Below the pieces are notes generated by a model. The model searched no databases. It had not been told where the DNA came from and saw nothing but the letters and a program-made list of their open reading frames with translations. Of a DNA stretch of 21,492 bases, positions 1,195 to 21,492 are shown piece by piece (positions within the stretch are counted from its first letter, which is position 1; each line of letters starts with the position of its first letter). Position numbers and translations under genes: made by a program. Origin of the DNA: a virus. Location: the IMG/VR virus record IMGVR_UViG_3300020182_002301, positions 1-21,492 of that record; one strand, given 5' to 3'.

Positions 1195-2230
1195 CGAAAT
1201 TAAAGGACAATTAGAGGGTAAAAAGATTGGAATTGACGATGTAGTAACTACTTATTCGTCAAAGATGGCATCACACAAGAGTGCGTGGTCATACTTATTG
1301 AAGGCACAACTTAACTATTTAGGCATCGATGCCGAAGTACTGGATAAGTCTTCAGATATTCATGAGTATGACGTATGGATGGTTGCGTTGCCAATGGAGT
1401 TTGCAGGTTCTTATAACTTGTTTGGAGGGGCAACTGACGAACCTGCTGCCAGAATTGAAAGATTCCTTGATTTTAAAGGACCTATCTATTGTCTGAATCG
1501 TGAAATGCCAGATGTTGGCGCCTTTGTTACTAGTCGAATGAAGAGCTGTTCAGAGCGCTGGTCAAAACTAGATGCGGAAGCTATTACACAAAAGTGCGAG
1601 ACAATAGAGACAATATCCCTGAGAACGGGTACCGGTACTTTTGTATTAGGAGATAGCCATTCAGTTTCAGTTTGTCCACCCAATGCTGACATCAGCCGAA
1701 ACGACGGTAAAACATTATTTGGAGTCATGAAAGAGGGCATGACTACTTATATTCCTGAAGGCACAACACATCTTGTCACCTATTTTGGAAACATTGATGT
1801 ACGCCATCATCTATGTCGTCAAAAGAATCCATACGAAGCTGCGGTAAAATTGGCTCAAGACTTTATTGAGCATTTAAAGTCTCTTAATATCGAAAGGGTA
1901 ACAGTACATACTTTATTACCTATCGAATTTGAGGGCCGCAGAATTCCAAAAACAGGCTGGTATAAAGGCACTCCATTTGCAGGTTCTAGAATAGAGAGGG
2001 TCGAAGTAATGGAGGCCTTTAACCACCAGGTACGAGTATTAGGTAAAGATGCTGGATTCGAGATTCTAGACTGGCCATCTCACTGGTTCGAAGAGAATCC
2101 TGAAGAATTTGCTAAAAACTACATGGAAAAACCAGGTTCGGTTCATTTAAGTAGAGAATACTACTATTGGAACTGGTCTACTGGTAAAAAGAATTCAAAA
2201 TTAACTAAAACGGTCCTAGGACTATTCTAA
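1181..2230 (+). CDS. SGNH/GDSL-type hydrolase-like protein (349 aa)
   Basis: Probably an esterase or acetylhydrolase of the SGNH fold. After about 150 residues of N-terminal region comes block I, VLGDSH (residues 155-160) with putative nucleophile Ser159. Next is a block III-like GNIDVRHH (203-210) with the oxyanion-hole Asn. Near the C-terminus SVHLSREYYYW (320-330) gives a candidate catalytic His322. There is no signal peptide, so it acts in the cell or on the virion. It overlaps the previous gene by 14 bases and its stop shares a base with the next start (TAATG). Substrate is unknown; neighbours linked to the cell surface suggest acylated glycans. The N-terminal part is unassigned, and a divergent non-enzymatic role is possible. 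Confidence 0.65.
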   Translation: MKAINEIKGQLEGKKIGIDDVVTTYSSKMASHKSAWSYLLKAQLNYLGIDAEVLDKSSDIHEYDVWMVALPMEFAGSYNLFGGATDEPAARIERFLDFKGPIYCLNREMPDVGAFVTSRMKSCSERWSKLDAEAITQKCETIETISLRTGTGTFVLGDSHSVSVCPPNADISRNDGKTLFGVMKEGMTTYIPEGTTHLVTYFGNIDVRHHLCRQKNPYEAAVKLAQDFIEHLKSLNIERVTVHTLLPIEFEGRRIPKTGWYKGTPFAGSRIERVEVMEAFNHQVRVLGKDAGFEILDWPSHWFEENPEEFAKNYMEKPGSVHLSREYYYWNWSTGKKNSKLTKTVLGLF

Positions 2231-3144
2231 TGAAAAAGTTATTAGCACTCTTAGCGCTATTAGTTACGGTTAACCTCAGTGCTTCACATATTCTTGGTGG
2301 AATTATTCAAGTTGCACAAACTAGTCAAGATTCTACATCTATTGGAATGTATGTTGTTTCAGATGCATTTCCAACAATGCCACAATCTGTTTCAGTACAG
2401 AAATGGGTTAAAGACTCTCAAGGTTGGTACCAATATGATGGTAATGTTACACTAACTAAGTTTAATACAGGAACACATCAAGGATTTAACACTGCAAATT
2501 ACGGTAGCGATTATTTAGATCTTGATTCAGGTCAATATAGATTCATTTACACAAATTGCTGCTGGCCGATGTTGGTGAATTCAACAAACTCAATACAATC
2601 AGACTTTGTTATCTCAACAGATTACTGGCATGTTCCGAATAATTCTACGGCATTTGGTGAGCAACCACTTTGGATTAATGTAGAGAAGAACTCAGTTAAT
2701 TCAATGAAACCTGTATGGGGAAACTACAATTGTCACTTTACAAATCCTAATCCAGGAGACTCAGTTAACTTAACAATGACTGAAATTTACTCATCGTATT
2801 CTAACGGTGTTTTTGTACCTCAAGTACAGACTTCAACTAATGTATTAGCAGGTAACGATTCAATCACATTTGTTGGTACAAATCTAGGTTCTCATGGATA
2901 TGGTTTTCAGATTGACAAATACCGAAATAGTTACTTGATGTCTACTCAGAGAATTCAATGGACTTTTATTGTTCGTAATTCTACGCTTAATATTGAAGAG
3001 AATCAGAAAGAAAAAGAAGTGATCGGAATATGGGACTGGCAAGGTCGCTATATTCAAGAAGATATAGAAATGCTGCCGGGCAATAGACTATATTTAATTA
3101 GATATAGCAATGGTACAACCGAAAAGATTCTTATAATCAAGTAG
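2230..3144 (+). CDS. Secreted protein with SHILGG-type N-terminus and T9SS-like sorting tail
   Basis: A Sec signal peptide is clear: two lysines, a Leu/Ala-rich core at residues 4-12, and likely cleavage after SAS (residues 17-19). The mature protein begins HILGG, and a TNCCWPM motif sits at 108-114. Both recall the Bacteroidota surface family whose members begin SH(I/L)xGG and carry a DCCRN-like motif, often linked to gliding proteins. Residues about 254-304 look like a type IX secretion sorting domain: IWDWQGRYI, then PGNRLYLIRYSNG, ending EKILIIK. If so, the product crosses the outer membrane of the host. It is 1-base coupled to the SGNH gene. Seen: motifs. Inferred: export by T9SS and a role in altering the host surface. 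It could instead be a lysis-released or virion protein. Confidence 0.7.
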   Translation: MKKLLALLALLVTVNLSASHILGGIIQVAQTSQDSTSIGMYVVSDAFPTMPQSVSVQKWVKDSQGWYQYDGNVTLTKFNTGTHQGFNTANYGSDYLDLDSGQYRFIYTNCCWPMLVNSTNSIQSDFVISTDYWHVPNNSTAFGEQPLWINVEKNSVNSMKPVWGNYNCHFTNPNPGDSVNLTMTEIYSSYSNGVFVPQVQTSTNVLAGNDSITFVGTNLGSHGYGFQIDKYRNSYLMSTQRIQWTFIVRNSTLNIEENQKEKEVIGIWDWQGRYIQEDIEMLPGNRLYLIRYSNGTTEKILIIK

Positions 3145-3327: not shown

Positions 3328-3361
3328 CGGCGCACATAAAGTGAATTTTTTTAAACTAATT

Positions 3362-3391
3362 ATGAAACTTTTCTTCAGAACGCTGTATAAC
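3362..3391 (+). promoter_or_regulatory. Promoter P4 of the inositol synthase gene
   Basis: ATGAAA followed by C (3362-3368) and TATAAC (3386-3391), spacer 18, the same AAAC-N17-TATAAT layout as P1-P3. The start point would be near 3398, upstream of ATG 3431 but downstream of the in-frame GTG 3341, which supports the shorter protein. Confidence 0.5.
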
Positions 3392-3430
3392 ATATACAAT
3401 AACATAAATAAAGGTTTAACAAAGAAAATT

Positions 3431-4642
3431 ATGGACAACAAGAAAATCAAAGTTGGGATTATCGGTACAGGGAATTGTGCTAAGTCCCTAGTTGAAGGCG
3501 TTCAGTACTACACTGAGCACACTGATGCAAAAACTGGTATGATGAAATTTGATATCGGTGGTTACAAAGCAGAAAATATTGAATTCGTAGTAGGATTCGA
3601 TATTGACGAACGTAAAATTGGTCTTCCTCTTGGAGAGGCTCTTAAGCAGAGACCAAACTGTGCATACGACATTGTAGAGACTATTACTAATACCTCTCCA
3701 GTGTATGAATCTCCAGTTATTGATGGATACGCATCTCTAATGGACCACTACCCAGAATCAAATCGTTTCTTAGTAGATGAGGATCTTCGTAACGAGACTG
3801 ATATGAATCGTACGGCATGGACTTCTAAAAAAGAACGCCAATGGAAAGATCGCGTAATCGCTCAATTACAAGAGCACGGTGTAGAAGTATTGGTAAACTA
3901 TCTACCAGTAGGTTCTCAAAAGACTACAGAGTTTTGGGCTGAAATCTGTTTAGAAACTGGAATCTCTTTCGTAAACTGTATTCCAGTCTTTATCGCATCA
4001 GATCCAAAATGGGAGCAGCGTTTCATCGATGCAGGAATTCCATTGATTGGAGACGATATGCGTAGCCAATTTGGTGCTTCAATCCTTTCTCAAATGCTAC
4101 AAGAACTTGCATTTGAACGTGGACACCACGTAAAAGCTCACATCCAACGTAATGTTGGTGGTAACACAGACTTCTTGAACATGGAAGACAAATCACGTCT
4201 TGCTTCTAAGAAGATCTCTAAAGAGAACGTAATCCGCGCTCAGAATGAAATTCGTAACATCTCAACTGAGGATTCATTCTTACATGCTGGACCATCTGAG
4301 TACATTCCATACTACGCAGATAACAAAGTGGCTAACTTCCGTCTTGAAATGGAAGGATTTGGAGGAGCTCCAGTTATCTTTGATGCTCAGCTATCTGTAC
4401 AAGATTCACCAAACTCTGGTGGTGTTGTGATCGACGCTCTTCGCTATGTAAAAGTAGCCCGCGAAATGGGAATCGTTGGCGCTCTTCGTGGACCTTCTGC
4501 TCTTACGCAAAAGACTCCACCTCAGCAAATGATGTTCCGCGATGGGGTTGTTGAATGTGATGCATTGGCAAATCGCGAGTTGACAGAAGTTACAAAGAAG
4601 CAACTTAAGTCAGTAAACACAAGAACTAAAGCAACTGTTTAA
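3431..4642 (+). CDS. myo-Inositol-1-phosphate synthase
   Basis: Converts glucose-6-phosphate to inositol-1-phosphate (L-myo-inositol 3-phosphate) using NAD in the cytoplasm, the first step of inositol synthesis. The 403-residue protein has the Rossmann motif VGIIGTGNCAKSLVEG near residue 8-23 and the family blocks NYLPVGSQ, FVNCIPVFIASDPKWEQRF, LIGDDMRSQFGA and GGNTDFLNMEDKSRLASKKISK, which carry the active-site lysines. It resembles the bacterial/archaeal form rather than the longer eukaryotic one. An in-frame GTG at 3341 would add 30 hydrophobic residues but lies upstream of the predicted transcription start, so ATG 3431 is chosen. It forms a single-gene unit between its own promoter and a strong terminator. 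In Bacteroidota, inositol phosphate feeds inositol sphingolipids, so lipid remodelling is a plausible role. Confidence 0.93.
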   Translation: MDNKKIKVGIIGTGNCAKSLVEGVQYYTEHTDAKTGMMKFDIGGYKAENIEFVVGFDIDERKIGLPLGEALKQRPNCAYDIVETITNTSPVYESPVIDGYASLMDHYPESNRFLVDEDLRNETDMNRTAWTSKKERQWKDRVIAQLQEHGVEVLVNYLPVGSQKTTEFWAEICLETGISFVNCIPVFIASDPKWEQRFIDAGIPLIGDDMRSQFGASILSQMLQELAFERGHHVKAHIQRNVGGNTDFLNMEDKSRLASKKISKENVIRAQNEIRNISTEDSFLHAGPSEYIPYYADNKVANFRLEMEGFGGAPVIFDAQLSVQDSPNSGGVVIDALRYVKVAREMGIVGALRGPSALTQKTPPQQMMFRDGVVECDALANRELTEVTKKQLKSVNTRTKATV

Positions 4643-5792: not shown

Positions 5793-6845
5793 ATGGCTGA
5801 AGATATGAGAGCCCTTGTCAATATGGAAATTATTGACCGCATTGGATATTTCTTCAATAAGGTTAATGAACGTTCCGAATTGACATATGGCTACAGAAAT
5901 TCATATGATAGTGGAGGCGATGAAGCACTTGGCGAAACAGTTGAGTACTTTCACCCTCACATTTTATATGATGACAGGATGAGATACATTATGGAGAACA
6001 TTGTCCTTTCAGACATGGATATGGACAATATTATTTGTAATACTATAATCTCTCACTTTTATGGAGGACGAGGTATTCACCAGATCCTGACACGAGAACC
6101 AGATCCTAAGAAGGCACTTGTTGATTTTAAGAGACTCTTAGTCGATAAGGATTATGAGATGGAGATTCGTAAAAATATTGATGATGCCCTTGCCCTAGGG
6201 CTTGGAGTGTATGGAACAACGGAACTTCGAACTTCTCTGTATGGAGCGTCCAACCAATGGGTTGCTGAAACACGAGGAGTCGAAAGAAACGCAGATAAGA
6301 TTAACATATTACTTTGGGTAGCTGGATTTATTCCTCGTGGAATCACACGGAGAATGGCAAATGTCCAGTCACTTGCTGAAATGTATGGTATTCTTACCGA
6401 AATTGAAGGAGTAGGGTCATACTATGGATATCACTGCTCGACATCAAATTCAGTTAATCCGAACATTCCAATTAATCATGATGAAAGATTCTGTGTTCCA
6501 GGTCCTGGTGCAAGGCTGACCCTCGATATGATGTTCGGTGAAGGGTGTAAAATACCACATGGTGATCGAGTTGTTTGGTTCAGAGAGAACTATAAGGACT
6601 TGATTGGAGATATTCCACTTAATGAGAACGAACATAATATGGTAGTAAATGGAGTAAAGATCTTCCAAGAGGATCAGAACGAGTTGAAAACATATGGATG
6701 TGAAGTTGGTCTCTGTCAGTTTGGAGTCTATACCAGATTAAGTAGCAATCCTAATCTAATCAATAAGAGAAAGGTTGCGAGGGTAGATGAATCAACGATG
6801 CAATATTTCTTCAACAACAACTTTACGCAAAATACGCTATTCTAA
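5793..6845 (+). CDS. DNA-glycosylase-like protein of the aGPT-Pplase / HMUDK-helical superfamily
   Basis: This 350-residue protein has the layout I associate with the alpha-glutamyl/putrescinyl-thymine pyrophosphorylase and 5-hmdU kinase helical-domain superfamily, proteins that build hypermodified bases in phage DNA. Key parts are a helical region MDNIICNTIISHFYGG (77-92), a helix-hairpin-helix-like LTEIEGVGSYYGYH (201-214), then HDERFCVPGPGAR (229-241), where Asp230 sits roughly where HhH glycosylases keep a catalytic Asp, and a C-terminal EVGLCQFGVYTRL (304-316). No P-loop kinase domain is attached, which favours the pyrophosphorylase-like side. It shares a TAATG junction with the next gene. 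Superfamily call is from motif recognition without a search; the modified base (thymine or hydroxymethylcytosine) cannot be told. A plain DNA-repair glycosylase is the alternative. Confidence 0.6.
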   Translation: MAEDMRALVNMEIIDRIGYFFNKVNERSELTYGYRNSYDSGGDEALGETVEYFHPHILYDDRMRYIMENIVLSDMDMDNIICNTIISHFYGGRGIHQILTREPDPKKALVDFKRLLVDKDYEMEIRKNIDDALALGLGVYGTTELRTSLYGASNQWVAETRGVERNADKINILLWVAGFIPRGITRRMANVQSLAEMYGILTEIEGVGSYYGYHCSTSNSVNPNIPINHDERFCVPGPGARLTLDMMFGEGCKIPHGDRVVWFRENYKDLIGDIPLNENEHNMVVNGVKIFQEDQNELKTYGCEVGLCQFGVYTRLSSNPNLINKRKVARVDESTMQYFFNNNFTQNTLF

Positions 6846-8848: not shown

Positions 8849-9127
8849 ATGGCAAATATCAAAGTTATTGAAGAACCCCGCGAGGTTTGGTGGGAAACAA
8901 CCAATGAAGGAATTCTAGAAGTTGATGGCGTAGCAGTTGACTATCGATGGAACGAAACTCCAAATGGAGCACATTTATTCTTGTACGAAGACGCCACATG
9001 GACTTCTGATCCTAGCAATGAACTATCAGACACATATGATTTATTGTGGGAAATGTTCTTAGAAGGAGGAGTAGATTATGTTTCTACGGAAGGTGAAGAA
9101 TTTAACTTTGATTTAGAAGATGAATAA
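8849..9127 (+). CDS. Acidic hypothetical protein (92 aa)
   Basis: Strongly acidic, with aromatic-rich strands (REVWWETTNEGILEVDGVAVDYRW) and an acidic C-terminus ending EEFNFDLEDE. No known motif is seen. The last 8 bases overlap the thymidylate synthase gene, whose ATG (9120) lies inside the final codons, so the two are probably coupled in translation. A DNA-mimic role could be imagined from the charge, but there is no evidence for it. Confidence 0.58.
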   Translation: MANIKVIEEPREVWWETTNEGILEVDGVAVDYRWNETPNGAHLFLYEDATWTSDPSNELSDTYDLLWEMFLEGGVDYVSTEGEEFNFDLEDE

Positions 9128-10058
9128 TTTAGACAAACAATATCAATCACTACTTGCCGATGTTTTAAATAACGGAGTAGAAAAAAGCGATCGTACCGGA
9201 ACAGGTACGATTTCTGTATTTGGGCGACAGATTCGCCATAATATGCAAGAAGGTTTTCCTTTGCTAACCACAAAAAAGATGGCAGTCAAAACTATGATGA
9301 CTGAATTGAAGTGGTTCTTAAAAGGAGATACCAACATTAAGTATTTGGTTGATAACGGATGTAACATTTGGAATGGTGATGCTTATAAAAGGTATAAAGA
9401 AGATAAGCAAGGGCTGGCAATGAGCATGGAAGCTTTTATCGAGAACATTAAGACTAATGATGAGTTTGCTAGAACGTGGGGTGAGTTAGGTCCTATTTAT
9501 GGTAAACAATGGAGAGAGTGGGGTCACGGAGTTTTAGAAAACAAACATTTAGGACAAATAGACCAAATCAAAAATCTAATCAACGACCTCAAGAACAATC
9601 CCGATAGTAGAAGACTAATGGTATCTGCTTGGAATGTTGGGGAGTTGGATGGAATGACTCTACCACCTTGTCACTATGGTTTCCAAGTGTATACACGCCC
9701 AACGACACGAGAAGAAAAGATTACTAACCCTGGAAAGTATAGAGCAGTCTCATTAATGTGGAACCAAAGATCAGTCGATACATTCTTAGGTCTGCCTTTT
9801 AATATCGCATCGTATGGCATGCTGCTAGAGTTGATTGCGAATGAATGTAATATGGTAGCTGATGAATTAATTGGTAATTTAGGAGACGTTCATCTTTATA
9901 AGAATCACACTAAACAGGCAAAAACTCAAATTAGTAGAGAACCTTATCCTCTTCCAGCCTTAACTAAATTAGAAAGTAACATGCTAGAAGGCGAATTCGA
10001 TTACACTATTGAATACTATGAAAGTTGGCCTAAAATCGAAGCACCATTAAGTAATTAA
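9120..10058 (+). CDS. thyA: Thymidylate synthase (ThyA type)
   Basis: Methylates dUMP to dTMP with methylene-tetrahydrofolate. All hallmark sites are present: DRTGTGT (24-30) for phosphate/folate contact, NIW (82-84), LGPIYGKQWREW (123-134), catalytic Cys184 in LPPCHYGFQ, RSVD (217-220), and LPFNIASYG (225-233) whose Asn228 selects uracil over cytosine. GDVHLYKNH (255-263) follows, and the C-terminus ends KIEAPLSN, a variant of the usual APVA. At 312 residues it is longer than E. coli ThyA, with inserts near residues 86-115 and 193-208 of the kind seen in T4-like phage enzymes. Together with the dUTPase it forms a dTMP supply line. It is distinct from the second synthase-like gene at 16134, which carries Asp at the selector position. 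Confidence 0.95.
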   Translation: MNNLDKQYQSLLADVLNNGVEKSDRTGTGTISVFGRQIRHNMQEGFPLLTTKKMAVKTMMTELKWFLKGDTNIKYLVDNGCNIWNGDAYKRYKEDKQGLAMSMEAFIENIKTNDEFARTWGELGPIYGKQWREWGHGVLENKHLGQIDQIKNLINDLKNNPDSRRLMVSAWNVGELDGMTLPPCHYGFQVYTRPTTREEKITNPGKYRAVSLMWNQRSVDTFLGLPFNIASYGMLLELIANECNMVADELIGNLGDVHLYKNHTKQAKTQISREPYPLPALTKLESNMLEGEFDYTIEYYESWPKIEAPLSN

Positions 10059-10298: not shown

Positions 10299-10475
10299 AT
10301 GAAGAGAATACTTAAACCACTTAGCCTTTTTGCTGCAGGATTACTTGCTTGGTTTTCACCAATACAGCAGGTACCTCACGGTGAAGGGCTTTGTTGTGCT
10401 GAATGCGCGATGAAGAGAGAAGACGAGATAGAATTTGTCGAAGAAATTGACGAGGAAGAAAACACAGAAGCATGA
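10299..10475 (+). CDS. Small exported or membrane protein with CCxxC motif (58 aa)
   Basis: MKRILKPLSLFAAGLLAWFSP gives a basic start and a hydrophobic stretch at residues 8-21, long enough for a signal or single membrane span. It is followed by QVPHGEG, a CCAEC cluster (32-36) and a very acidic tail (EFVEEIDEEENTEA). The Cys cluster could bind metal or take part in disulphide exchange. The stop overlaps the GH16 start in an ATGA junction (10472-10475), which strongly supports a real, co-translated gene. It could help locate the glycosidase at the membrane or act in lysis; both are guesses. Confidence 0.6.
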   Translation: MKRILKPLSLFAAGLLAWFSPIQQVPHGEGLCCAECAMKREDEIEFVEEIDEEENTEA

Positions 10476-11383
10476 TTAAACACAGTTTAAAGGACACAAT
10501 CTCAAATCTAAAATCAAGAATTAAGGCTAACCTTTGGTCTAACGTTTATAATGGAGGGGATAGAATATTCACTCCACCATCTGACTATAAACTAGTTTTT
10601 GAAGACAACTTCGATAACCCACTTAATCTACAAGAATGGAGATATGGGCAGCCTTGGGGCGATTTCCATGCCGATGTACTATGCCAATATTATGGTAAAG
10701 GAGATCTTGCATACGTATCAACCGAAGGATTGGCATTAGAATTACGCAATATTCCAAAGACCTATAAGAAAAGTGAGTTGCCTCTTTGGAGACAGAAGGA
10801 TCATTTACCTGAAGAATTTACAATTCCAGTAGGGGTTGGTATGGTTTCAACTAAACAGAGCTGGAAATATGGATGGTTTGAGGCTGAGATTAAATTACCA
10901 AAAGGAACTCCATATTGGGCAGCATTTTGGTTAAGTGGAGCTGAGACTTGGCCTCCTGAAATCGATATATTCGAGGCATATAGTGATGAAGGTGATGTCT
11001 ATTCTAAAAAGAACATATTTGGTAAATTAACCCAAAATAAAAAGATACAGCCTAACCTACATTATGGTAACGTTAATGAAGGGTCTAAAACAATGTACGG
11101 ATCTTATAGTGTTTCCGTAGCAGATTGTACTGAAAGATATGTTCAATATGCGTGTCTTTGGGAAGAGGACAGAATAGAAATATATTATGATGGTATTAGA
11201 GTATTCAAATGTACTGACCCTGAAATACTAAAATGGTATAATGCTGAAAATTCAAATCAATTTGTAATTCTCAATCATGGATATTACCATTATGCTGATT
11301 TAGAAAAGGATATACCACGCGAAAGTGCAGTCCTGGTAAAATCTTTTAGAGTATTGCAGAAAAATAATGTAACCGCAGTTTAA
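10472..11383 (+). CDS. Glycoside hydrolase family 16 enzyme
   Basis: A beta-glucanase/laminarinase/agarase-type glycosidase. The catalytic signature EIDIFE lies at residues 163-168, with Glu163 as nucleophile, Asp165 assisting and Glu168 as acid/base. Flanking strands match the GH16 jelly roll: KLVFEDNFDNPLNLQEWRYG (40-59), WKYGWFEAEIKLPKG (131-145), YWAAFWLSG, and a closing VLVKSFRVLQKN near 290. There is no signal peptide, so it probably acts from the virion or after lysis on a host capsule, matrix or marine polysaccharide. It starts inside the stop of the 58-aa gene. Directly after its TAA, a +1 frame stays open to 11483, possibly a lost or frameshifted extension. Family is secure; substrate is not known. 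Confidence 0.9.
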   Translation: MIKHSLKDTISNLKSRIKANLWSNVYNGGDRIFTPPSDYKLVFEDNFDNPLNLQEWRYGQPWGDFHADVLCQYYGKGDLAYVSTEGLALELRNIPKTYKKSELPLWRQKDHLPEEFTIPVGVGMVSTKQSWKYGWFEAEIKLPKGTPYWAAFWLSGAETWPPEIDIFEAYSDEGDVYSKKNIFGKLTQNKKIQPNLHYGNVNEGSKTMYGSYSVSVADCTERYVQYACLWEEDRIEIYYDGIRVFKCTDPEILKWYNAENSNQFVILNHGYYHYADLEKDIPRESAVLVKSFRVLQKNNVTAV

Positions 11384-11785: not shown

Positions 11786-12425
11786 GGATGCTTGGCAGAT
11801 TCTGCGCATTCAAGGAGAATTCACTAAAGGATTTGATACATTTAACGAATTAGGACCATGTGTTTCAGTATTTGGTTCTGCAAGAACCCCTGAAAAAGAC
11901 ATATGGTACAAAGAGGCCCGCAAATTTGGTAAGCTTATGGCTGCTGCAAATATCGGTGTTATATCAGGCGGAGGTCCAGGTATTATGGAAGCCGCAAACA
12001 GGGGTGCATATGAAAATAATGGAGTTTCTGTTGGAGTTGGTATTGAATTACCATTTGAAGCTGAAATGAACCCATATATCAATGTAGGCGTGGAGAATAG
12101 ATACTTCTTCACACGTAAAGTCATGTTCATGAAATATTCTCAAGGATATGTAGTCTTTCCAGGCGGGCTCGGTACACTCGATGAACTATTCGAAGCGCTT
12201 ACATTAATTCAATGTGGTCATGTTCACCAACAACCTATTGTTCTAGTCGGTAAAAAATACTGGGCTGGACTTATGGATTGGCTAATGGATATGGTTAACG
12301 CAAGCGGTCGCATGAGCTTAAAAGACTTTGATCTATTTAGAATTGTAGACTCAGCTGAAGAAGCTGCAGATAAGATTATTGAATACCACGAAAAATACAG
12401 AAAAGATAACGAACCAAATTTCTAA
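11763..12425 (+). CDS. LOG-family nucleotide phosphoribohydrolase-like protein
   Basis: Member of the LOG ('lysine decarboxylase-like', TIGR00730-type Rossmann) family, which cleaves the N-glycosidic bond of nucleoside 5'-monophosphates, releasing base and ribose-5-phosphate. Visible motifs are VSVFGSART (34-42), the phosphate-binding GGGPGIMEAANRGA (69-82), FFTRKVMF (115-122) with the conserved Arg, and the catalytic PGGLGTLDELFEA (133-145). Length, 220 aa, is normal for the family. The preceding gene overlaps it; its stop overlaps the M42 start by one base. In a phage it could salvage bases, deplete a nucleotide or destroy a nucleotide signal. Family is firm; physiological role is open. Confidence 0.87.
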   Translation: MSLNRKTEDAWQILRIQGEFTKGFDTFNELGPCVSVFGSARTPEKDIWYKEARKFGKLMAAANIGVISGGGPGIMEAANRGAYENNGVSVGVGIELPFEAEMNPYINVGVENRYFFTRKVMFMKYSQGYVVFPGGLGTLDELFEALTLIQCGHVHQQPIVLVGKKYWAGLMDWLMDMVNASGRMSLKDFDLFRIVDSAEEAADKIIEYHEKYRKDNEPNF

Positions 12426-13516
12426 TGAAAAACGAAGAACAATTTATCTACAAGTACCTTAACGCATTCTCACCTGTTGGTGAAGAGAGCGAAGGCCAAC
12501 AAATTTGGATTGATGAGGTTAATAATTACGTCGACGGAATGTACGTTGATCCGTATGGAACCGCAGTTGGTCGAGTAGAGACTGATTCAGTTTATATGGA
12601 CAAAACCCCGCGAGTTGTTATCGAAGCGCACTGTGATGAGATTGCATGGATTATTACCAATATCGAAAAAGAGGGCTACATTAGAGTTAAGAGACATGGT
12701 GGTAGCGATAATATGATTGCACCTTCAAAGGATATTGTAGTACATACGAAAAATGGTAAAATAAACGGCGTATTTGGCTGGCCAGCAATCCACACTCGAG
12801 ATTCTTATGTCGAAGAGGGACCAGACCAACATGAGCTTTGGGTTGACTTAGGAGCTGAAGGCGATGAAGAGGTAGCTGAATTAGGAGTAGAGGTAGGAAA
12901 CATCGTTACATTCAACGATCCACTTCGTCAGATCGGAAACTACTGGGTAGGCCGTTCTCTTGATAACAAGATTGGAGGTTACATTATTGCTGAAGTAGCA
13001 AAAAGACTAAAAGAGCGAGATATTAAATTACCGTTCGACCTTTATGTTGTCAATTCAGTACAGGAAGAGGTTGGTTTGTATGGTGCTAAAATGATTGCAA
13101 AGCGACTACAGGCTGATTTAGCTCTAGTTCACGATGTTTGCCATAATACAAATACACCCAGAATTGAGAAGTCTAAAGATGGAAATATCAAAGGAGGTAA
13201 AGGACCAACCCTAGAATATACCGCACAAAATCATCGTAAGATTAATAACATGATCGAAGAGATTGCTAAGAAGAACGATATTCCGGTACAGAAGGCAGTA
13301 GGCTCGTATGGTAATGACACAATGGCATTCTTCCTAGAGAATACTCCAACTGCGATCTTGGCAACTCCACTTAAGTATATGCATACTACCGTAGAAATGG
13401 CTCACGTAGATGACGTTGAAAACTGTATTGAACTTTATATTAACGTATTACAAAGCATCGATAGTGAGGTTATTTCTGAGATACATAATAAGAAGCTGAA
13501 CAGTTTCACATTATAA
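12425..13516 (+). CDS. M42-family metallo-aminopeptidase
   Basis: A co-catalytic two-metal aminopeptidase of the M42 (glutamyl aminopeptidase/FrvX-like) family, acting on peptides in the cytoplasm. The expected ligands are in order: EAHCDEIAW with His69 and Asp71, SLDNKIGGY with bridging Asp180, VQEEVGLYGAK with catalytic Glu214 and Glu215, HDV with Asp237, and YMHTTVEMAHVDDVEN with His320. Long blocks such as GVFGWPAIHTR and IAPSKDIVVHTKNG resemble versions from Bacteroidota, pointing to capture from a host. It is unusual in a phage. It may finish peptides released by the Clp protease encoded downstream, since M42 enzymes act after larger proteases. Start shares a base with the LOG stop; a terminator follows. 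Confidence 0.9.
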   Translation: MKNEEQFIYKYLNAFSPVGEESEGQQIWIDEVNNYVDGMYVDPYGTAVGRVETDSVYMDKTPRVVIEAHCDEIAWIITNIEKEGYIRVKRHGGSDNMIAPSKDIVVHTKNGKINGVFGWPAIHTRDSYVEEGPDQHELWVDLGAEGDEEVAELGVEVGNIVTFNDPLRQIGNYWVGRSLDNKIGGYIIAEVAKRLKERDIKLPFDLYVVNSVQEEVGLYGAKMIAKRLQADLALVHDVCHNTNTPRIEKSKDGNIKGGKGPTLEYTAQNHRKINNMIEEIAKKNDIPVQKAVGSYGNDTMAFFLENTPTAILATPLKYMHTTVEMAHVDDVENCIELYINVLQSIDSEVISEIHNKKLNSFTL

Positions 13517-14094: not shown

Positions 14095-16107
14095 ATGTCA
14101 GTAGCAGACGGATACGAAAGCGAAAAAGGTCGCAGAAAAAAGTTCAAGACTAACACTCCATTCCTAGACGAATATGGTGAAGACTTGACTAGATTAGCGG
14201 CTGAAGGAAAGCTAGACCCTATTATCGGCAGGGATAAGGAGATTTATCGAATCTGCCAAATCTTGGCACGCCGCAAGAAAAACAACCCAATTATCCTTGG
14301 AGATCCAGGTGTTGGTAAAACTGCAATTGTTGAGGCAATCGCACAGAGAATTGTTAGCAAAAAGGTAGCACGTGTACTCTTAAACAAGAGAATCGTTTCT
14401 ATCAATATGACTACAATTGTCGCAGGTACCAAATATCGTGGAGAATTCGAAGAGAGAATGAAGCAAATCGTTGACGAACTAAAGTCAGTTGATAATGTTA
14501 TCGTTTTCATCGATGAGATCCATACAATTGTCGGTGCAGGTGGTGTTAGCGGAGCTCTTGATGCTTCGAACATCTTAAAGCCAGCCCTTGCAAGAGGACA
14601 GGTACAGTGTATTGGTGCTACTACACTTGATGAATATCGTGAGAATGTTGAAGATGATGGTGCATTAACCCGTCGTTTCCAAGAAATCTTTATCGATCCA
14701 CCATCAATTGAAGATACTATTGAGATTCTTAAGAGAATTAAAGGCCAATACGAAGAGCATCATGCAGTAGAGTATACTGAAGAAGCACTTGAAGCTTGTG
14801 TAAAAATGAGCGAACGCTACATTAAATCAAGAGAATTGCCAGATAAAGCAATTGACCTAATGGACGAGGCTGGAGCACGTACTCACCTGCTTGAAGTTAA
14901 AGTGCCTGCTAAAATTAAGAACCTAGAAAAAGATGCTGAATTAATTCGTGTTAAAAAAGAGAATGCAGTCGCATCTCAGGATTATGAATTAGCAGCGTCA
15001 CTTAGAGACGAACAGTTATCAATCGACCAAAAAGTTATTGATGAAACTCTTAAATGGGAAGAAAGTCTTAAGCAAACCAAAAGAATCGTAGGTATCGATG
15101 ATATTGCTGAAACCATCTCAAATCAAACTGGAATTCCAGTGAAGAGATTAGGGGTTGATGATAAGAAACTAATCATTCAAATGGCTGATGAATTAAAACA
15201 AAGAATCATTGGTCAAGATGAAGCAGTTGACGCGCTCGCAACAGTAATTAAAAGATCACGTACAGGCGTAAGCAGTCATAAAAAACCAGTCGGTTCATTT
15301 ATGTTCTTAGGTCCAACTGGAGTTGGTAAAACTGAGACTGTTAAGGCACTTGCTGAATATATGTTTGGCGATACTGATTCGATGATTCGTATCGATATGT
15401 CAGAGTACCAAGAGAAGTTTAACGTTTCTCGATTAGTTGGTTCGCCTCCAGGATATATTGGTCACGAAGATGGTGGTCAATTGACAGAGGCAGTTCGACG
15501 CAAGCCACACTCAGTTATCCTATTTGATGAGATTGAGAAGGCTCACCCTGATGTTTTTAATACTCTATTGCAAGTACTTGATGACGGTCGATTAACTGAT
15601 TCAGGAGGTCGTTTAGTTGACTTCACAAACTCAATCATTATTATGACTTCAAATGTAGGTGCTCGCAAACTTGCTGAATTCGGTACAGGAATTGGATTCC
15701 AAAGCGAAAGTACACTTGCACAAAAGAGCGGTAAAATTGAAGGCGTGATTAAGAAAGAATTAAAGAACAAATTTAGTCCAGAATTCTTGAATCGTCTAGA
15801 TGATATTATTCTATTCGATCACCTATCAAATGAAGATGTACTTTCAATCGTTGATATTGAATTAGGTCTCTTTAATGATAGAATGGCTGAAGAAGGATAT
15901 TCATTTAAATTCAATGCAGCTGCAAAACAATTTATCTGCAATGAAGGATACGACAAGGCGTTTGGAGCCCGTCCAATCAAGAGAGCAATTCAAAAGTACG
16001 TTGAAGATTTAGTAGCAGATGCTATTTTAACTGAACAAATTGAACCTAGAGAGAAGCCATATAATATCACAAAGCTGAAGTCTGAGGATAAACTAATCAT
16101 AAAATAA
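14095..16107 (+). CDS. ClpC/ClpA-type AAA+ unfoldase lacking the N domain
   Basis: A two-ring AAA+ unfoldase that should feed proteins into ClpP. AAA1 has Walker A GDPGVGKT (69-76), Walker B VIVFIDE (135-141) and Arg finger RRF (193-195). A short linker contains a UVR-like helix DYELAASLRDEQ (296-307), as in ClpC, not the long ClpB coiled coil. AAA2 has GPTGVGKT (405-412), VILFDE (474-479) and the sensor-2 GARPIKR near the C-terminus. GIGF (532-535) occupies the ClpP-docking loop, absent in ClpB. At 670 residues it lacks the usual N-terminal double Clp-N repeat (ClpC is about 800+), starting instead with a short basic tail, so substrate choice must differ from host ClpC. It precedes dCMP hydroxymethylase and ClpP. 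TATAAG at 14049-14054 is a possible -10. Confidence 0.93.
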   Translation: MSVADGYESEKGRRKKFKTNTPFLDEYGEDLTRLAAEGKLDPIIGRDKEIYRICQILARRKKNNPIILGDPGVGKTAIVEAIAQRIVSKKVARVLLNKRIVSINMTTIVAGTKYRGEFEERMKQIVDELKSVDNVIVFIDEIHTIVGAGGVSGALDASNILKPALARGQVQCIGATTLDEYRENVEDDGALTRRFQEIFIDPPSIEDTIEILKRIKGQYEEHHAVEYTEEALEACVKMSERYIKSRELPDKAIDLMDEAGARTHLLEVKVPAKIKNLEKDAELIRVKKENAVASQDYELAASLRDEQLSIDQKVIDETLKWEESLKQTKRIVGIDDIAETISNQTGIPVKRLGVDDKKLIIQMADELKQRIIGQDEAVDALATVIKRSRTGVSSHKKPVGSFMFLGPTGVGKTETVKALAEYMFGDTDSMIRIDMSEYQEKFNVSRLVGSPPGYIGHEDGGQLTEAVRRKPHSVILFDEIEKAHPDVFNTLLQVLDDGRLTDSGGRLVDFTNSIIIMTSNVGARKLAEFGTGIGFQSESTLAQKSGKIEGVIKKELKNKFSPEFLNRLDDIILFDHLSNEDVLSIVDIELGLFNDRMAEEGYSFKFNAAAKQFICNEGYDKAFGARPIKRAIQKYVEDLVADAILTEQIEPREKPYNITKLKSEDKLIIK

Positions 16108-16133: not shown

Positions 16134-16982
16134 ATGAGTTTCTCACAAACATTTATAGATCTAATTGGCGAAATCAACACGTATGAGTCTGAGTCTTCTC
16201 CACGAGATTTAAAAGTAAAAGAAGCGCTTTTAGCTTCGTTCGATATCGATCCAACAAATCCAATCGCGGATTTTAAAGATCGTCCGTTCAACTTTAAGTA
16301 CTTTACTGGCGAATTGGCATGGTACCTACATCGCGATAAGAACATTGACTATATTAGTCACTTTTCTAGCTTTTGGAAAAACATCACCAATCCAGGTACT
16401 AATGAGATTAACTCAAACTATGGTAACTTAGTGTTTAATGAAGAGCAATTCGGTTGGGTTGTTGATTCTTTACGCAAAGACAAAGAGTCAAGACAGGCTG
16501 TAATGTTCTTTAATAGACCACAGTTCCAATTCGAAGACAATAAAGATTTTGTATGTACACTTTACGCAAACTTCTTTATTAGAAAGAATAAACTGTACAT
16601 GAAGATTCAAATGAGATCAAACGATATTTTCTTTGGTTTAACATTTGATGCGCCATTCTTTGCATTCCTTCATCAATCAGTTTACCATTCACTATTGAAG
16701 AATTACCCTGATCTAGAGTTAGGATATTACTTCCACTTTGTAGACAATATTCATTTTTACGAAAGACACTTCGATCTTGCAAGTGAGATTGTAGAGAATG
16801 GTGTAGGCAACGACTATTCATTAGTATTAAAAAAGCCTATGTTAGAATATGAAAACAATACACTAAGTCTAACCGATGCTGGTATTGAATTCCTACAAAG
16901 AGTTGATAATGCGATGGCCGCAGAAAAAAGAGGAGAACAAGTAGACTATAAACTAATTCTCAATGATTACTTTCAAATCTAA
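16134..16982 (+). CDS. Deoxycytidylate 5-hydroxymethylase (T4 gp42-like)
   Basis: A thymidylate-synthase-fold enzyme predicted to make 5-hydroxymethyl-dCMP for modified phage DNA. It follows T4 gp42 block by block: EINSNYG (91-97), SRQAVMFFNRPQFQF (119-133), NKDFVCT with catalytic Cys141, FIRKNKLYMKI (148-158), MRSND (160-164) and IHFYERHF (206-213). At the base-selector site, where thymidylate synthase has LPFN, this protein has LTFD (Asp172), the known switch from uracil to cytosine. The usual synthase C-terminal APVA is absent, as expected for a hydroxymethylase. At 282 residues it is somewhat longer than gp42 (246). It sits between ClpC and ClpP and has its own promoter-like site. A dUMP hydroxymethylase is the alternative, made less likely by Asp172. 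Confidence 0.83.
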   Translation: MSFSQTFIDLIGEINTYESESSPRDLKVKEALLASFDIDPTNPIADFKDRPFNFKYFTGELAWYLHRDKNIDYISHFSSFWKNITNPGTNEINSNYGNLVFNEEQFGWVVDSLRKDKESRQAVMFFNRPQFQFEDNKDFVCTLYANFFIRKNKLYMKIQMRSNDIFFGLTFDAPFFAFLHQSVYHSLLKNYPDLELGYYFHFVDNIHFYERHFDLASEIVENGVGNDYSLVLKKPMLEYENNTLSLTDAGIEFLQRVDNAMAAEKRGEQVDYKLILNDYFQI

Positions 16983-16983
16983 A

Positions 16984-17301
16984 ATGTCATACCTCGAAGA
17001 AAATAGAATCCCGACAATTTATGTCGATCCTCAGAAGTTCACTAAGCCTGACTTTGACCTGATGTTGATGTCTAAATACGATATCTTCTACCGTCGAATT
17101 GTTGAGTATGTGTTACACATCGTTGAGGGTGGAGATGAAGAGATGCTAGTAATCTTAGTTGACGACGAAGGAGTAGAATACGAAATGGTCTTACCAGAAG
17201 ACGGATTTTCAAAATCACTAACAAAAGCAAAAGAATACTTTGAATTAATAGAGGAATACGAAACATGCGACCTCATTAAACAGATTTTAAAGAACATATG
17301 A
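16984..17301 (+). CDS. Hypothetical acidic protein between hydroxymethylase and ClpP (105 aa)
   Basis: No family is recognised. The N-terminal half has mixed helices (MSYLEENRIPTIYVDP, then FDLMLMSKYDIFYRRIVEYVLHI), the middle an acidic strand pair (EEMLVILVDDEGVEYEMVL), and the end a helical SLTKAKEYFELIEEYETCDLIKQILKNI. An in-frame ATG at 16963 lies inside the hydroxymethylase gene; ATG 16984, one base after its stop, is preferred. The stop overlaps the ClpP start (ATGA), so it is co-translated with ClpP. An adaptor or regulator of the Clp protease is a reasonable hypothesis from position only. Confidence 0.65.
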   Translation: MSYLEENRIPTIYVDPQKFTKPDFDLMLMSKYDIFYRRIVEYVLHIVEGGDEEMLVILVDDEGVEYEMVLPEDGFSKSLTKAKEYFELIEEYETCDLIKQILKNI

Positions 17302-17981
17302 ACTACCTACCTAAAGATAAAGAATTTGAAAGATTCGCAAAGAGCGAATTTAATATTGGGTCAAGTACCGTAGATGCTTATAGCAAGCATATTCAAGGGT
17401 CAATGACTCCATATATTTTAGAGGAGAGAGAATTGAGAGCTACTCAAATGGACATCTTCTCAAGATTAATGATGGACCGTTTACTATGGGTAGCTGGTCC
17501 AGTAGACGACAGAATGAGCACAGTTGTACAAGCACAGTTGATGTTTCTAGACACTACGTCTACCGAAGATATAACAATGCATATTGATAGTCCGGGTGGT
17601 TCAGTTAAGTCGGGACTTTCAATGGTAGACGTTATGGAATACATTAAAGCCGATATTAGAACTATTAATACCGGAATGGCAGCTTCGATGGGTTCAGTCC
17701 TGCTTGGAGCTGGAACAAAAGGAAAACGTATGTCATTACGACATTCAAAAACTATGCTTCATCAATCTTCAGGCGGTTTTAGGGGTAACATCCAAGATGC
17801 TGAAATCGACTGGCAAGAATGGCAAAAAGTGAACCATGAATTATTTGTACTTCTAGGTTCATACTGTGATAAAGATCCAGAGCAAGTAAAAATAGATGCA
17901 ACCAGAGATTTTTGGTTATCTGCAGACGAGGCTTTAGATTATGGTATTATTGATGAAGTGATTAAAAACAAGAGAGCATAA
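17298..17981 (+). CDS. clpP: ClpP-type serine protease subunit
   Basis: Catalytic chamber subunit of an ATP-dependent protease. The Ser-His-Asp triad is complete: Ser130 in GMAASMGSVLLGAG, His155 in SKTMLHQSSGG and Asp204 in RDFWLSADEALDYGIID. IDSPGGSVKSGLSM (97-109) is the substrate-binding strand and glycine loop. The segment PYILEERELRATQMDIFSRLMMDR (38-61) resembles ClpP of Bacteroidota. At 227 residues it is full length with a propeptide-like N-terminus of about 35 residues. Close likeness to bacterial ClpP and the nearby ClpC-like unfoldase with a docking loop favour true regulated proteolysis over a capsid-maturation protease. Subunits might also mix with host ClpP. Confidence 0.92.
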   Translation: MNYLPKDKEFERFAKSEFNIGSSTVDAYSKHIQGSMTPYILEERELRATQMDIFSRLMMDRLLWVAGPVDDRMSTVVQAQLMFLDTTSTEDITMHIDSPGGSVKSGLSMVDVMEYIKADIRTINTGMAASMGSVLLGAGTKGKRMSLRHSKTMLHQSSGGFRGNIQDAEIDWQEWQKVNHELFVLLGSYCDKDPEQVKIDATRDFWLSADEALDYGIIDEVIKNKRA

Positions 17982-19413: not shown

Positions 19414-21492
19414 ATGCCACAAGTTTCTAGAAATAACCTGATTGCATATATCCCTCAGGTTTATCAATTAACAAAGGGACAAGCTCACAACATTACGATT
19501 ATCCTTTACCAAAACCAGGTAGGAAATCAAGTTGAAGCTTATTCCGCACAGTCAATTGAAGTTAAAGTCTACGATAAAGATTTAGCTTTTAAATATTCAT
19601 ATACGACAGCAGCAAGTCAAATTCAATTTGGTTCAACTGCGGCAAGTACTGAAGGTCACATTACCTTTAACATGTCTCAGTTACAAGTTGATTCACTTGA
19701 TGATGGATCAGTTTACGCAGAAGTTAAATACGTAACTGCAAATAACAGTGTAACACTACCTAAACTTAAAATCATTAGCCTTTCTTCGGCTGGAGGAGTT
19801 ACTTCAGGTGGTGTAGTAACTGGAAACGTATTTACCGTTCCAGCACCGTTATACAGAGTGCAGTCATTTAACTATGGCGCAAACGATCTTCCAGTTGCTG
19901 GTAAAATCGTTTTAGACAGCTCTAATCCTGCTTCAGTAACGAAGGTAATCTTCCATAACACCGATGAGAGAGGAAAGAGAAACTCTTACTTAGAAAACTA
20001 CTTAACAAATAGATTTACAGCTGATGGTGCTAATGTAACTATCGCCCTTACGGACGTATCGGACACGAGCATCTATAATCTATACAAAATTACAAGCTGG
20101 TCTAGAGTAGATATTAATGGAAATGCTACAACTAACGAATTAGCAGATGGTTTAGAATTAACACTTACTCACGAAGCAAGTCCAATTTCAGCTGAAAGTA
20201 CATTCCCATTCTTAGTTGAACAGAGAATTGGTATCCTATTAGATGCATACGGAGCTGCTGGAAACGGTGGTGGAGGTACATTCAACCTAACAATTGAAGA
20301 CGATAACACATCAGTTTCTTCAGTTAATGCAATCGATTTTGGTTCACATGCAACCATTACTGATTTAGGAAATGGTTCAATCTCAGTAAGCTTTGATTCA
20401 CATACATCAGGAACAAGTGGAGTTAGCGGTACGTCAGGTACTTCTGGAATTAGCGGAACAAGCGGTACTTCAGGAATTAGCGGAACATCTGGTACTTCAG
20501 GAGTAAATGGTACTTCAGGTACTTCAGGTTCAAATGGAACAAGCGGTACTTCAGGAGTTAGCGGAACCTCTGGTACTTCTGGAATTAGCGGAACATCTGG
20601 TACTTCTGGAATCAACGGAACATCTGGTACTTCAGGAGTAAATGGAACAAGCGGTACTTCAGGTTCAAATGGAACAAGTGGTACTTCAGGAGTTAGTGGT
20701 ACATCAGGTACATCAGGAGTTAGCGGAACAAGCGGTACTTCAGGTGTAAGCGGTGCTCCAGGTACAAGTGGTACATCAGGTATTAACGGTGCTCCAGGTG
20801 CTCCAGGTACCCCAGGTACTCCAGGTACTTCAGGTACTAGCGGTACTTCAGGAGCAACAGGTGCCCCAGGTACTCCAGGTACTCCAGGTACAAGTGGTAC
20901 ATCAGGTATTAACGGTGCTCCAGGTGCTCCAGGAACAAGTGGTACTTCAGGAGTTAATGGAACTTCAGGTACTTCAGGCTCAAATGGTACATCAGGTACT
21001 TCTGGAATTAGTGGTACTTCAGGTACTTCAGGAGTTAGCGGAACAAGCGGTACTTCAGGAGTCAATGGTACTTCTGGTACAAGTGGAGTTAACGGAACTT
21101 CAGGAACTTCTGGTTCAAATGGTACTTCAGGTACTTCAGGAGTTAGCGGTACTTCAGGTACATCAGGAGTTAGCGGTACTTCAGGAACTTCAGGAGTTAA
21201 CGGAACTTCAGGTACATCAGGAGTTAGCGGTTCATCAGGTACATCAGGTATTAATGGTACTTCAGGTATCTCGGGTGTCGATGGTACACCAGGTACTTCA
21301 GGTACATCAGGAGTTAGCGGAACAAGCGGTACTTCTGGAATTAGCGGTACTTCAGGAACTTCAGGAGTTAATGGAACTTCAGGAACTTCAGGAGTTAATG
21401 GAACTTCAGGAACTTCAGGAGTTAATGGAACTTCAGGAACAAGCGGAGTTAGTGGTACTTCAGGTACATCAGGAATTAGTGGTACATCAGGT
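19414..21492 (+). CDS. Collagen-like repeat structural protein, probably a tail fibre (3' end beyond window)
   Basis: The frame starts at ATG 19414 and is still open at the window edge, giving 693 residues. Residues 1 to about 330 are beta-rich and non-repetitive (RNNLIAYIPQVYQLTKGQ at the start, a Gly-rich GAAGNGGGG linker near 285). Such a region could be a virion attachment domain. From residue 333 the protein is a continuous Gly-X-Y run, mostly GTSGTSG followed by VS, IS, VN or SN, a 9-residue rhythm. A proline island near residues 447-506 contains GAPGAP and GTPGTP. This composition predicts a trimeric collagen-like shaft; such shafts occur in phage fibres and adsorption appendages. The C-terminal tip, which would bind the receptor, is not in the window. 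No signal peptide is visible. Confidence 0.85.
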   Translation, partial: MPQVSRNNLIAYIPQVYQLTKGQAHNITIILYQNQVGNQVEAYSAQSIEVKVYDKDLAFKYSYTTAASQIQFGSTAASTEGHITFNMSQLQVDSLDDGSVYAEVKYVTANNSVTLPKLKIISLSSAGGVTSGGVVTGNVFTVPAPLYRVQSFNYGANDLPVAGKIVLDSSNPASVTKVIFHNTDERGKRNSYLENYLTNRFTADGANVTIALTDVSDTSIYNLYKITSWSRVDINGNATTNELADGLELTLTHEASPISAESTFPFLVEQRIGILLDAYGAAGNGGGGTFNLTIEDDNTSVSSVNAIDFGSHATITDLGNGSISVSFDSHTSGTSGVSGTSGTSGISGTSGTSGISGTSGTSGVNGTSGTSGSNGTSGTSGVSGTSGTSGISGTSGTSGINGTSGTSGVNGTSGTSGSNGTSGTSGVSGTSGTSGVSGTSGTSGVSGAPGTSGTSGINGAPGAPGTPGTPGTSGTSGTSGATGAPGTPGTPGTSGTSGINGAPGAPGTSGTSGVNGTSGTSGSNGTSGTSGISGTSGTSGVSGTSGTSGVNGTSGTSGVNGTSGTSGSNGTSGTSGVSGTSGTSGVSGTSGTSGVNGTSGTSGVSGSSGTSGINGTSGISGVDGTPGTSGTSGVSGTSGTSGISGTSGTSGVNGTSGTSGVNGTSGTSGVNGTSGTSGVSGTSGTSGISGTSG
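20410..21492 (+). repeat. Collagen-like coding repeat (9-base triplets, 27-base higher unit)
   Basis: About 120 consecutive Gly-X-Y units, each 9 bases, mostly grouped as three units (27 bases) encoding GTSGTSG plus a variable pair. Codons vary silently between copies (GGT/GGA, ACT/ACA/ACC, TCA/TCT/AGC/AGT), so the DNA copies differ more than the protein. A proline-bearing island spans 20752-20931, with one more Pro unit at 21283-21291. The repeat continues past the right edge. Confidence 0.95.

Follow-up and report, generated by a model that had tools for sequence, protein, structure and literature searches.

The window, by which we mean the whole 21,492-base stretch analysed here, is a fragment, an IMG/VR virus record classed there as viral, and on its plus strand carries a gene of 304 codons plus stop (2230-3144) with an ATG start. 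This ATG overlaps the stop codon of the upstream open reading frame (1181-2230), so that translational coupling of the two is likely. The product opens with a predicted Sec signal peptide (2230-2283; residues 1-18, MKKLLALLALLVTVNLSA), judged, like those of all 11 family members, from hydropathy and residue layout, with a peak hydropathy of 3.1 over 11 residues and a predicted cleavage between A18 and S19, immediately before SHILGG. The signal peptide has no lipobox cysteine, and lipoprotein sorting was rejected. An N-terminal β-sandwich (Ig-like) module follows (2284-2634; residues 19-135), which begins with SHILGG and contains TNCC at residues 108-111, and is succeeded by a remaining body (2635-2982; residues 136-251) with DSV, FVP, YRN and QRIQW motifs, for which the structural model is of low confidence. 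A linker (2983-2994) presents Thr252 and Ile255, invariant family-wide in the pattern T-[LVI]-x-I, as a candidate PorU cleavage region. The C-terminus (2989-3141; residues 254-304, 51 amino acids) is best described as an abridged (short) type A T9SS C-terminal domain (CTD), in which motif B is WDWQGR (3031-3048; residues 268-273), motif D is GNRLY (3079-3093; residues 284-288) and motif E is EKILIIK (3121-3141; residues 298-304), with Lys299 invariant in the family.

The first-pass annotation had singled out this reading frame for its Sec signal, SHILGG opening, TNCC motif and tail motif, and these are confirmed here, all being conserved in an 11-member family of 38-78% identity to the window protein that was found in IMG/VR contigs only. 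All members share the Sec signal peptide, '(S/T)H..GG', 'NCC' and a C-terminal tail, and the layout of the signal together with (S/T)H..GG is the same in 11 out of 11. Identity to the window protein over the alignment is 78% for L003, 72% for L004, 65% for L005-L008, 60% for L023, 53% for L015, 48-49% for L019-L021 and 38% for L017, while a second contig, L002, carries an identical copy. A scan of GTDB genome contigs by a few exact peptide patterns, which a divergent relative could escape, gave no bacterial relative, and tblastn with the window protein or that of L017 gave nothing credible among isolate phages and plasmids, matches to Klebsiella and Flavobacterium sequences at E 3 being discarded as noise. 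HMMER comparison of the window protein with NCBIfam, Pfam and PHROGs returned no PHROG match and, whatever the E-value, nothing for TIGR04183 or Pfam; a devC match at E 0.13 was likewise set aside as noise. PDB sequence searches with the family profile, or with the tail profile alone, produced chance matches only.

The full-length model has a mean pLDDT of 56, and its residues 16-140 match generic Ig folds only, from which no specific function can be read; profile and structure comparison recognised neither a ligand-binding site nor an enzyme family in the body. The SHxxGG module with which it opens is frequent in Bacteroidota surface proteins and also opens, as SHLSGG, a type B T9SS protein of one sister phage, G010 (L039 1396-3447; 684 aa, CHU_C 80 bits). 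Family members resemble this TIGR04131/CHU_C protein in signal peptide, SHxxGG opening, CC motif and a co-linear body similarity (E 3e-8), but consist of one module with a short type A-like tail in place of 684 residues ending in a type B CTD. When the signal and SHxxGG are removed, the comparison of the bodies yields a probability of 13.5% and E 0.002, above 100 out of 100 shuffles, suggesting a partial homology to the N-terminal module of the type B protein that is only moderate without those two elements. Membership of the family itself in type B was rejected, as TIGR04131 matches neither the window protein nor the family copies and is matched in this different G010 protein. The L039 type B protein has relatives of 80-84% in two other viral contigs, and its CTD region is matched in huge uncultured phages of 634-642 kb (LR756502.1 518983-519387, E 3e-5; LR745206.1 27601-27960, E 9e-5).

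The first-pass annotation had named a missing profile match for the last 50 residues as refuting its T9SS reading, and formally this applies to the window protein: TIGR04183, a model of 72 columns with a curated cut-off of 23 bits, finds nothing in it, whereas profile, motif and fold tests at the level of the family favour T9SS. In the sister L023, TIGR04183 is the one model that matches at all, at 12.8 bits and thus under the cut-off (E 0.089, residues 267-306 of 307). The window protein apparently escapes this model because its abridged tail lacks the expected 'YPNP' half, which is absent from 11 out of 11 family tails and retained by the standard cargo that sister phages encode. The phage tails share motifs B and E and the C-terminal position with the type A domain of TIGR04183 and PF18962, and may share its motif D and β fold; they differ from it in the missing YPNP half and in their scores, no member tested having reached the curated cut-off. 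Motifs B and E sit at the very C-terminus of the family tails, where the motif B glycine and the motif E lysine are invariant. Motif D is GLY in six members and is altered in L003, L004, L015, L019 and the window protein, which has its glycine displaced and so lacks the usual one two residues before the tyrosine (GxY); in HBP35, the single changes G324A and Y326A in motif D are tolerated.

When the ends of 225 ORFs were ranked with a profile built on five structurally solved T9SS C-terminal domains, all 11 family tails fell within the top 22, just under the standard T9SS tails (Mann-Whitney p 1e-8, which ignores the relatedness of the sequences), with the window protein among the weaker members at 3.2 bits (E 1.1). 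Compared directly, the profile of the family tails and that of the standard type A tails of sister phages give a score that beats 200 out of 200 column shuffles. A C-terminal B-D-E motif occurs in 14 of the 225 ORF ends, every one of them a family member or a standard T9SS-tailed protein, and in 5 of 22,500 shuffled tails, which at the level of sequence excludes chance for the tail. Modelled with AF2, the tail (61 residues; pLDDT 71 on average and about 84 within the strands) has strands at 21-26, 31-33 (short), 43-49 and 54-59, that is, three main strands plus a short strand or turn. The best VIA match of this model, among the 1000 chains ranked highest by Foldseek from a pool of 350,542, is the C-terminal domain of P. 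gingivalis HBP35 (rmsd 2.2 Å over 42 residues, 19% identity), with a Z of 3.5 that is weak and equalled by unrelated folds; in Foldseek the RemA CTD, from the T9SS complex 8gl6, stands second, at an E of 1.0 that is likewise weak and tied. That a predicted model should bring two T9SS domains to or near the top of two rankings is notable despite such scores.

The closest precedent for a tail of this size comes from Prevotella intermedia, where short CTDs of 43-55 residues were described in 48 cargo proteins; three strands are predicted for them, forming one sheet, at times with an additional short strand or helix between the first and the second (PMC11969387). These short CTDs are cleaved and glycosylated; position +2 of the cleavage site is a conserved Ile, the cleavage consensus is PT/GI, and the authors stated in 2025 that no species other than P. 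intermedia had been reported to have both short and long CTDs (PMC11969387). The phage tails resemble them in length (49-56 residues in the family and 51 in the window protein, counted from the residue before the invariant Ile to the end), in the small number of predicted strands and the three-stranded AF2 model, and in the Gly plus Arg/Lys of motif B, the basic motif E and an Ile next to the cleavage site. However, the candidate cleavage site is T-[LVI]-x-I rather than PT/GI, the carriers are phages and not Prevotella, and the spacing, by our own motif boundaries, is 11-14 from cleavage site to B and 10-14 from B to D, compared with 6-11 and 1-6 in P. intermedia (PMC11969387), which places the phage tails between short and long CTDs. 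As length, strands and motif chemistry match while spacing differs, we call them abridged or short-CTD-like and not members of the class. For HBP35, experiments located what is needed of the CTD within its last 22 residues (PMC3120885, PMC10202324). In RgpB, on the other hand, the motif B region is needed and an internal CTD deletion abolished secretion (PMC11285876, PMC11969387), so that some hosts might not secrete a protein with a domain cut down in this way.

The 21 kb window fragment has no portal, capsid or other hallmark gene, and the phage setting of the family is instead read from the other contigs that bear it, several of which span 79-297 kb and include T4-like genes for capsid and portal. 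The T4-type portal (PF07230) is found in 6 of 12 family-bearing contigs, the Gp23 major capsid protein (PF07068) in 5 of 12, and neither in 14 control genomes; Gp20 portal and Gp23 occur together in five of these contigs, and G005 carries the portal. In L015 the family gene shares an 8.6 kb contig with a gp25-like gene and with a portal gene whose closest counterparts come from huge uncultured phages and Prevotella Lak phages. The presence of portal and capsid genes on the same contigs indicates that the family gene is phage-borne. The sister phages also encode standard T9SS cargo that exceeds the curated cut-offs, namely, besides the type B protein of G010 described above, an M9 collagenase with 51.5 bits to TIGR04183 in G001, the phage of the 78% relative (L041 2510-5014, minus strand), a cohesin-type protein in G010 (47 bits) and GCTD-repeat proteins in G003, G004 and G007 (about 50 bits).

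A second recurrent companion is a DNA/RNA non-specific endonuclease (PF01223), present in 8 of the 12 family-bearing contigs and, in the copies read, with a signal peptide (L019 5402-6004, L020 2044-2646, L003 1225-1821, L006 3704-4447, L017 996-1619). In six out of eight contigs it lies within about 4.5 kb of the family gene, and it is immediately upstream in L019, with a 4-base overlap, and in L020, a few bases away. TonB-dependent outer-membrane receptors, an unusual cargo for a phage, are found in three contigs; copies lie at L017 3017-4990, directly upstream of the family gene, and at G006 20324-21838, G002 48294-49778 and G010 23033-24544. QueC/QueE/FolE-like genes flank the family gene in L019 (2140-4682 and 10555-11250) and L020 (3-596 and 4499-5209), which suggests a 7-deazaguanine DNA modification in those phages.

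Signal peptide, tail tests and phage context together support the earlier proposal that this phage gene encodes a protein exported by Sec and ending in a T9SS-type sorting tail, and through that tail the Bacteroidota host proposed with it; judged from its sequence features, the product is very probably a phage-made T9SS cargo protein. During infection, Sec would export the protein to the host periplasm, where the T9SS of the host, with its SprA/Sov translocon and PorV shuttle, would recognise the abridged type A domain by its motifs B, D and E, carried on three main strands instead of seven. The protein would then reach the outer surface, to stay exposed there or be released, probably once PorU has cut within the linker (residues 252-255), leaving a mature part that may be a compact Ig-like binding module of adhesin type, akin to the N-terminal module with which larger T9SS surface proteins begin. 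In this reading, secretion, cleavage near T252-I255 and surface anchoring are inferred, as is the biological role considered next.

The linkage to the exported nuclease suggests that the two act jointly, and in the role that we prefer the protein may work at the surface of the living infected cell together with this nuclease, which several sister phages encode nearby; superinfection exclusion and scavenging are both compatible with this. Among specific roles, superinfection exclusion is quite conceivable, if clearly short of probable; capture of external nutrients appears doubtful, and adhesion or aggregation, like any other function, rather unlikely. The body is under strong constraint, with dN/dS of about 0.06-0.14 where dS is unsaturated, which speaks mildly against a fast-evolving arms-race decoy. 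For the first-pass suggestions of receptor masking, a block of gliding or exclusion of rivals, no support was obtained. It may be instead that a surface-acting partner of the nuclease in superinfection exclusion is the wrong picture, and that the protein serves nutrient capture or adhesion, keeping the infected host feeding or attached, a prospect to which we give a little less than even standing. The M9 collagenase, cohesin-like cargo and TonB-dependent receptors of the sister phages and the GH16 enzyme of the window would fit such scavenging, as would the strongly conserved body; against this, neither a ligand-binding site nor an enzyme family was recognised, and the nuclease linkage suits either role.

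Returning to surface display by T9SS, an improbable alternative is that the protein is Sec-exported and remains periplasmic or associated with the outer membrane, its T9SS-like tail being a decayed remnant and not a T9SS substrate. The tail is indeed without the first half of the type A domain, scores under curated cut-offs and evolves faster than the body (dN 0.33 compared with 0.15 between the window protein and L004). However, no family member departs from the motif B Gly or the motif E Lys, and across relatives the tail shows a dN/dS of 0.12-0.36, a moderate constraint, from which we conclude that the tail is maintained; moreover, short CTDs work in P. intermedia, and standard T9SS cargo is encoded by these very phages. 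Phage virions commonly bear Ig-like domains and the L015 gene is close to a portal gene, yet a non-exported virion protein of tail or head decoration, with only incidental resemblance in signal and tail, is highly improbable given that the signal peptide is kept in 11 out of 11 members, that the tail matches T9SS domains and that the neighbours elsewhere are metabolism, nuclease and DNA-modification genes and not virion genes.

Bellas et al. (2020; PMC7468147) described T9SS type A cargo genes encoded by Cryophage, and an earlier report had placed T9SS sorting domains near or in crAss-BACON proteins (PMC6949934). As here, the Cryophage cargo is phage-encoded, bears a T9SS sorting domain and was proposed to be secreted by the T9SS of the host; it comprises endoglucanase, GH39 and PA14 proteins whose annotation includes a type A sorting domain (PMC7468147), whereas the present proteins form a small family of T4-like phages in which no enzyme domain was recognised and the abridged sorting domain escapes standard profiles. 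As far as our searches reach, three things are new: that T4-like phages have a conserved small family of this kind, that the abridged tail occurs outside Prevotella, and that these phages carry a wider set of surface proteins. Phage use of T9SS is thereby extended from the Cryophage and crAss-like cases to a dedicated, conserved family of small cargo, and the abridged CTD of one Prevotella species may be used more widely and be missed by the TIGR04183 and PF18962 models. These proteins suggest that a virus displays or releases a protein of its own on the outer surface of its host while the infected cell still works. The tail also gives a host signal, T9SS-positive Bacteroidota, for large phages that are otherwise unassigned, and a natural tail of about 51 residues could help to find out what the translocon and PorV require of a CTD. 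More speculatively, and as a whole somewhat unlikely, a T4-like phage lineage might remodel the surface of the living Bacteroidota host by a self-encoded secretome of short and standard type A and type B T9SS cargo, TonB-dependent receptors and exported nucleases, short CTDs then being a broader class missed by profiles; that the short-CTD protein, whose gene is in one relative translationally coupled to that of an exported nuclease, would work within it at the surface, for example by excluding other phages, we hold to be similarly tentative.

Several other genes of the window deserve mention. Two thymidylate-synthase-family proteins and a 5-hmdU DNA kinase-like helical domain (9120-10058, 16134-16982 and 5793-6845) point to a hypermodified thymine in the phage DNA. 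A myo-inositol-1-phosphate synthase (3341-4642) is about 53% identical to versions from Stenotrophomonas phages. The GH16 glycoside hydrolase (10472-11383), also encoded by the sister phage L003 (3173-4078), is without an obvious signal peptide. A Clp ATPase (14095-16107), a ClpP-like protease (17298-17981) and an M42 aminopeptidase (12425-13516) make up a phage protein-turnover set, and a long GTSGTSG collagen-like repeat protein, probably a tail fibre, runs off the end of the window (19414-21492).
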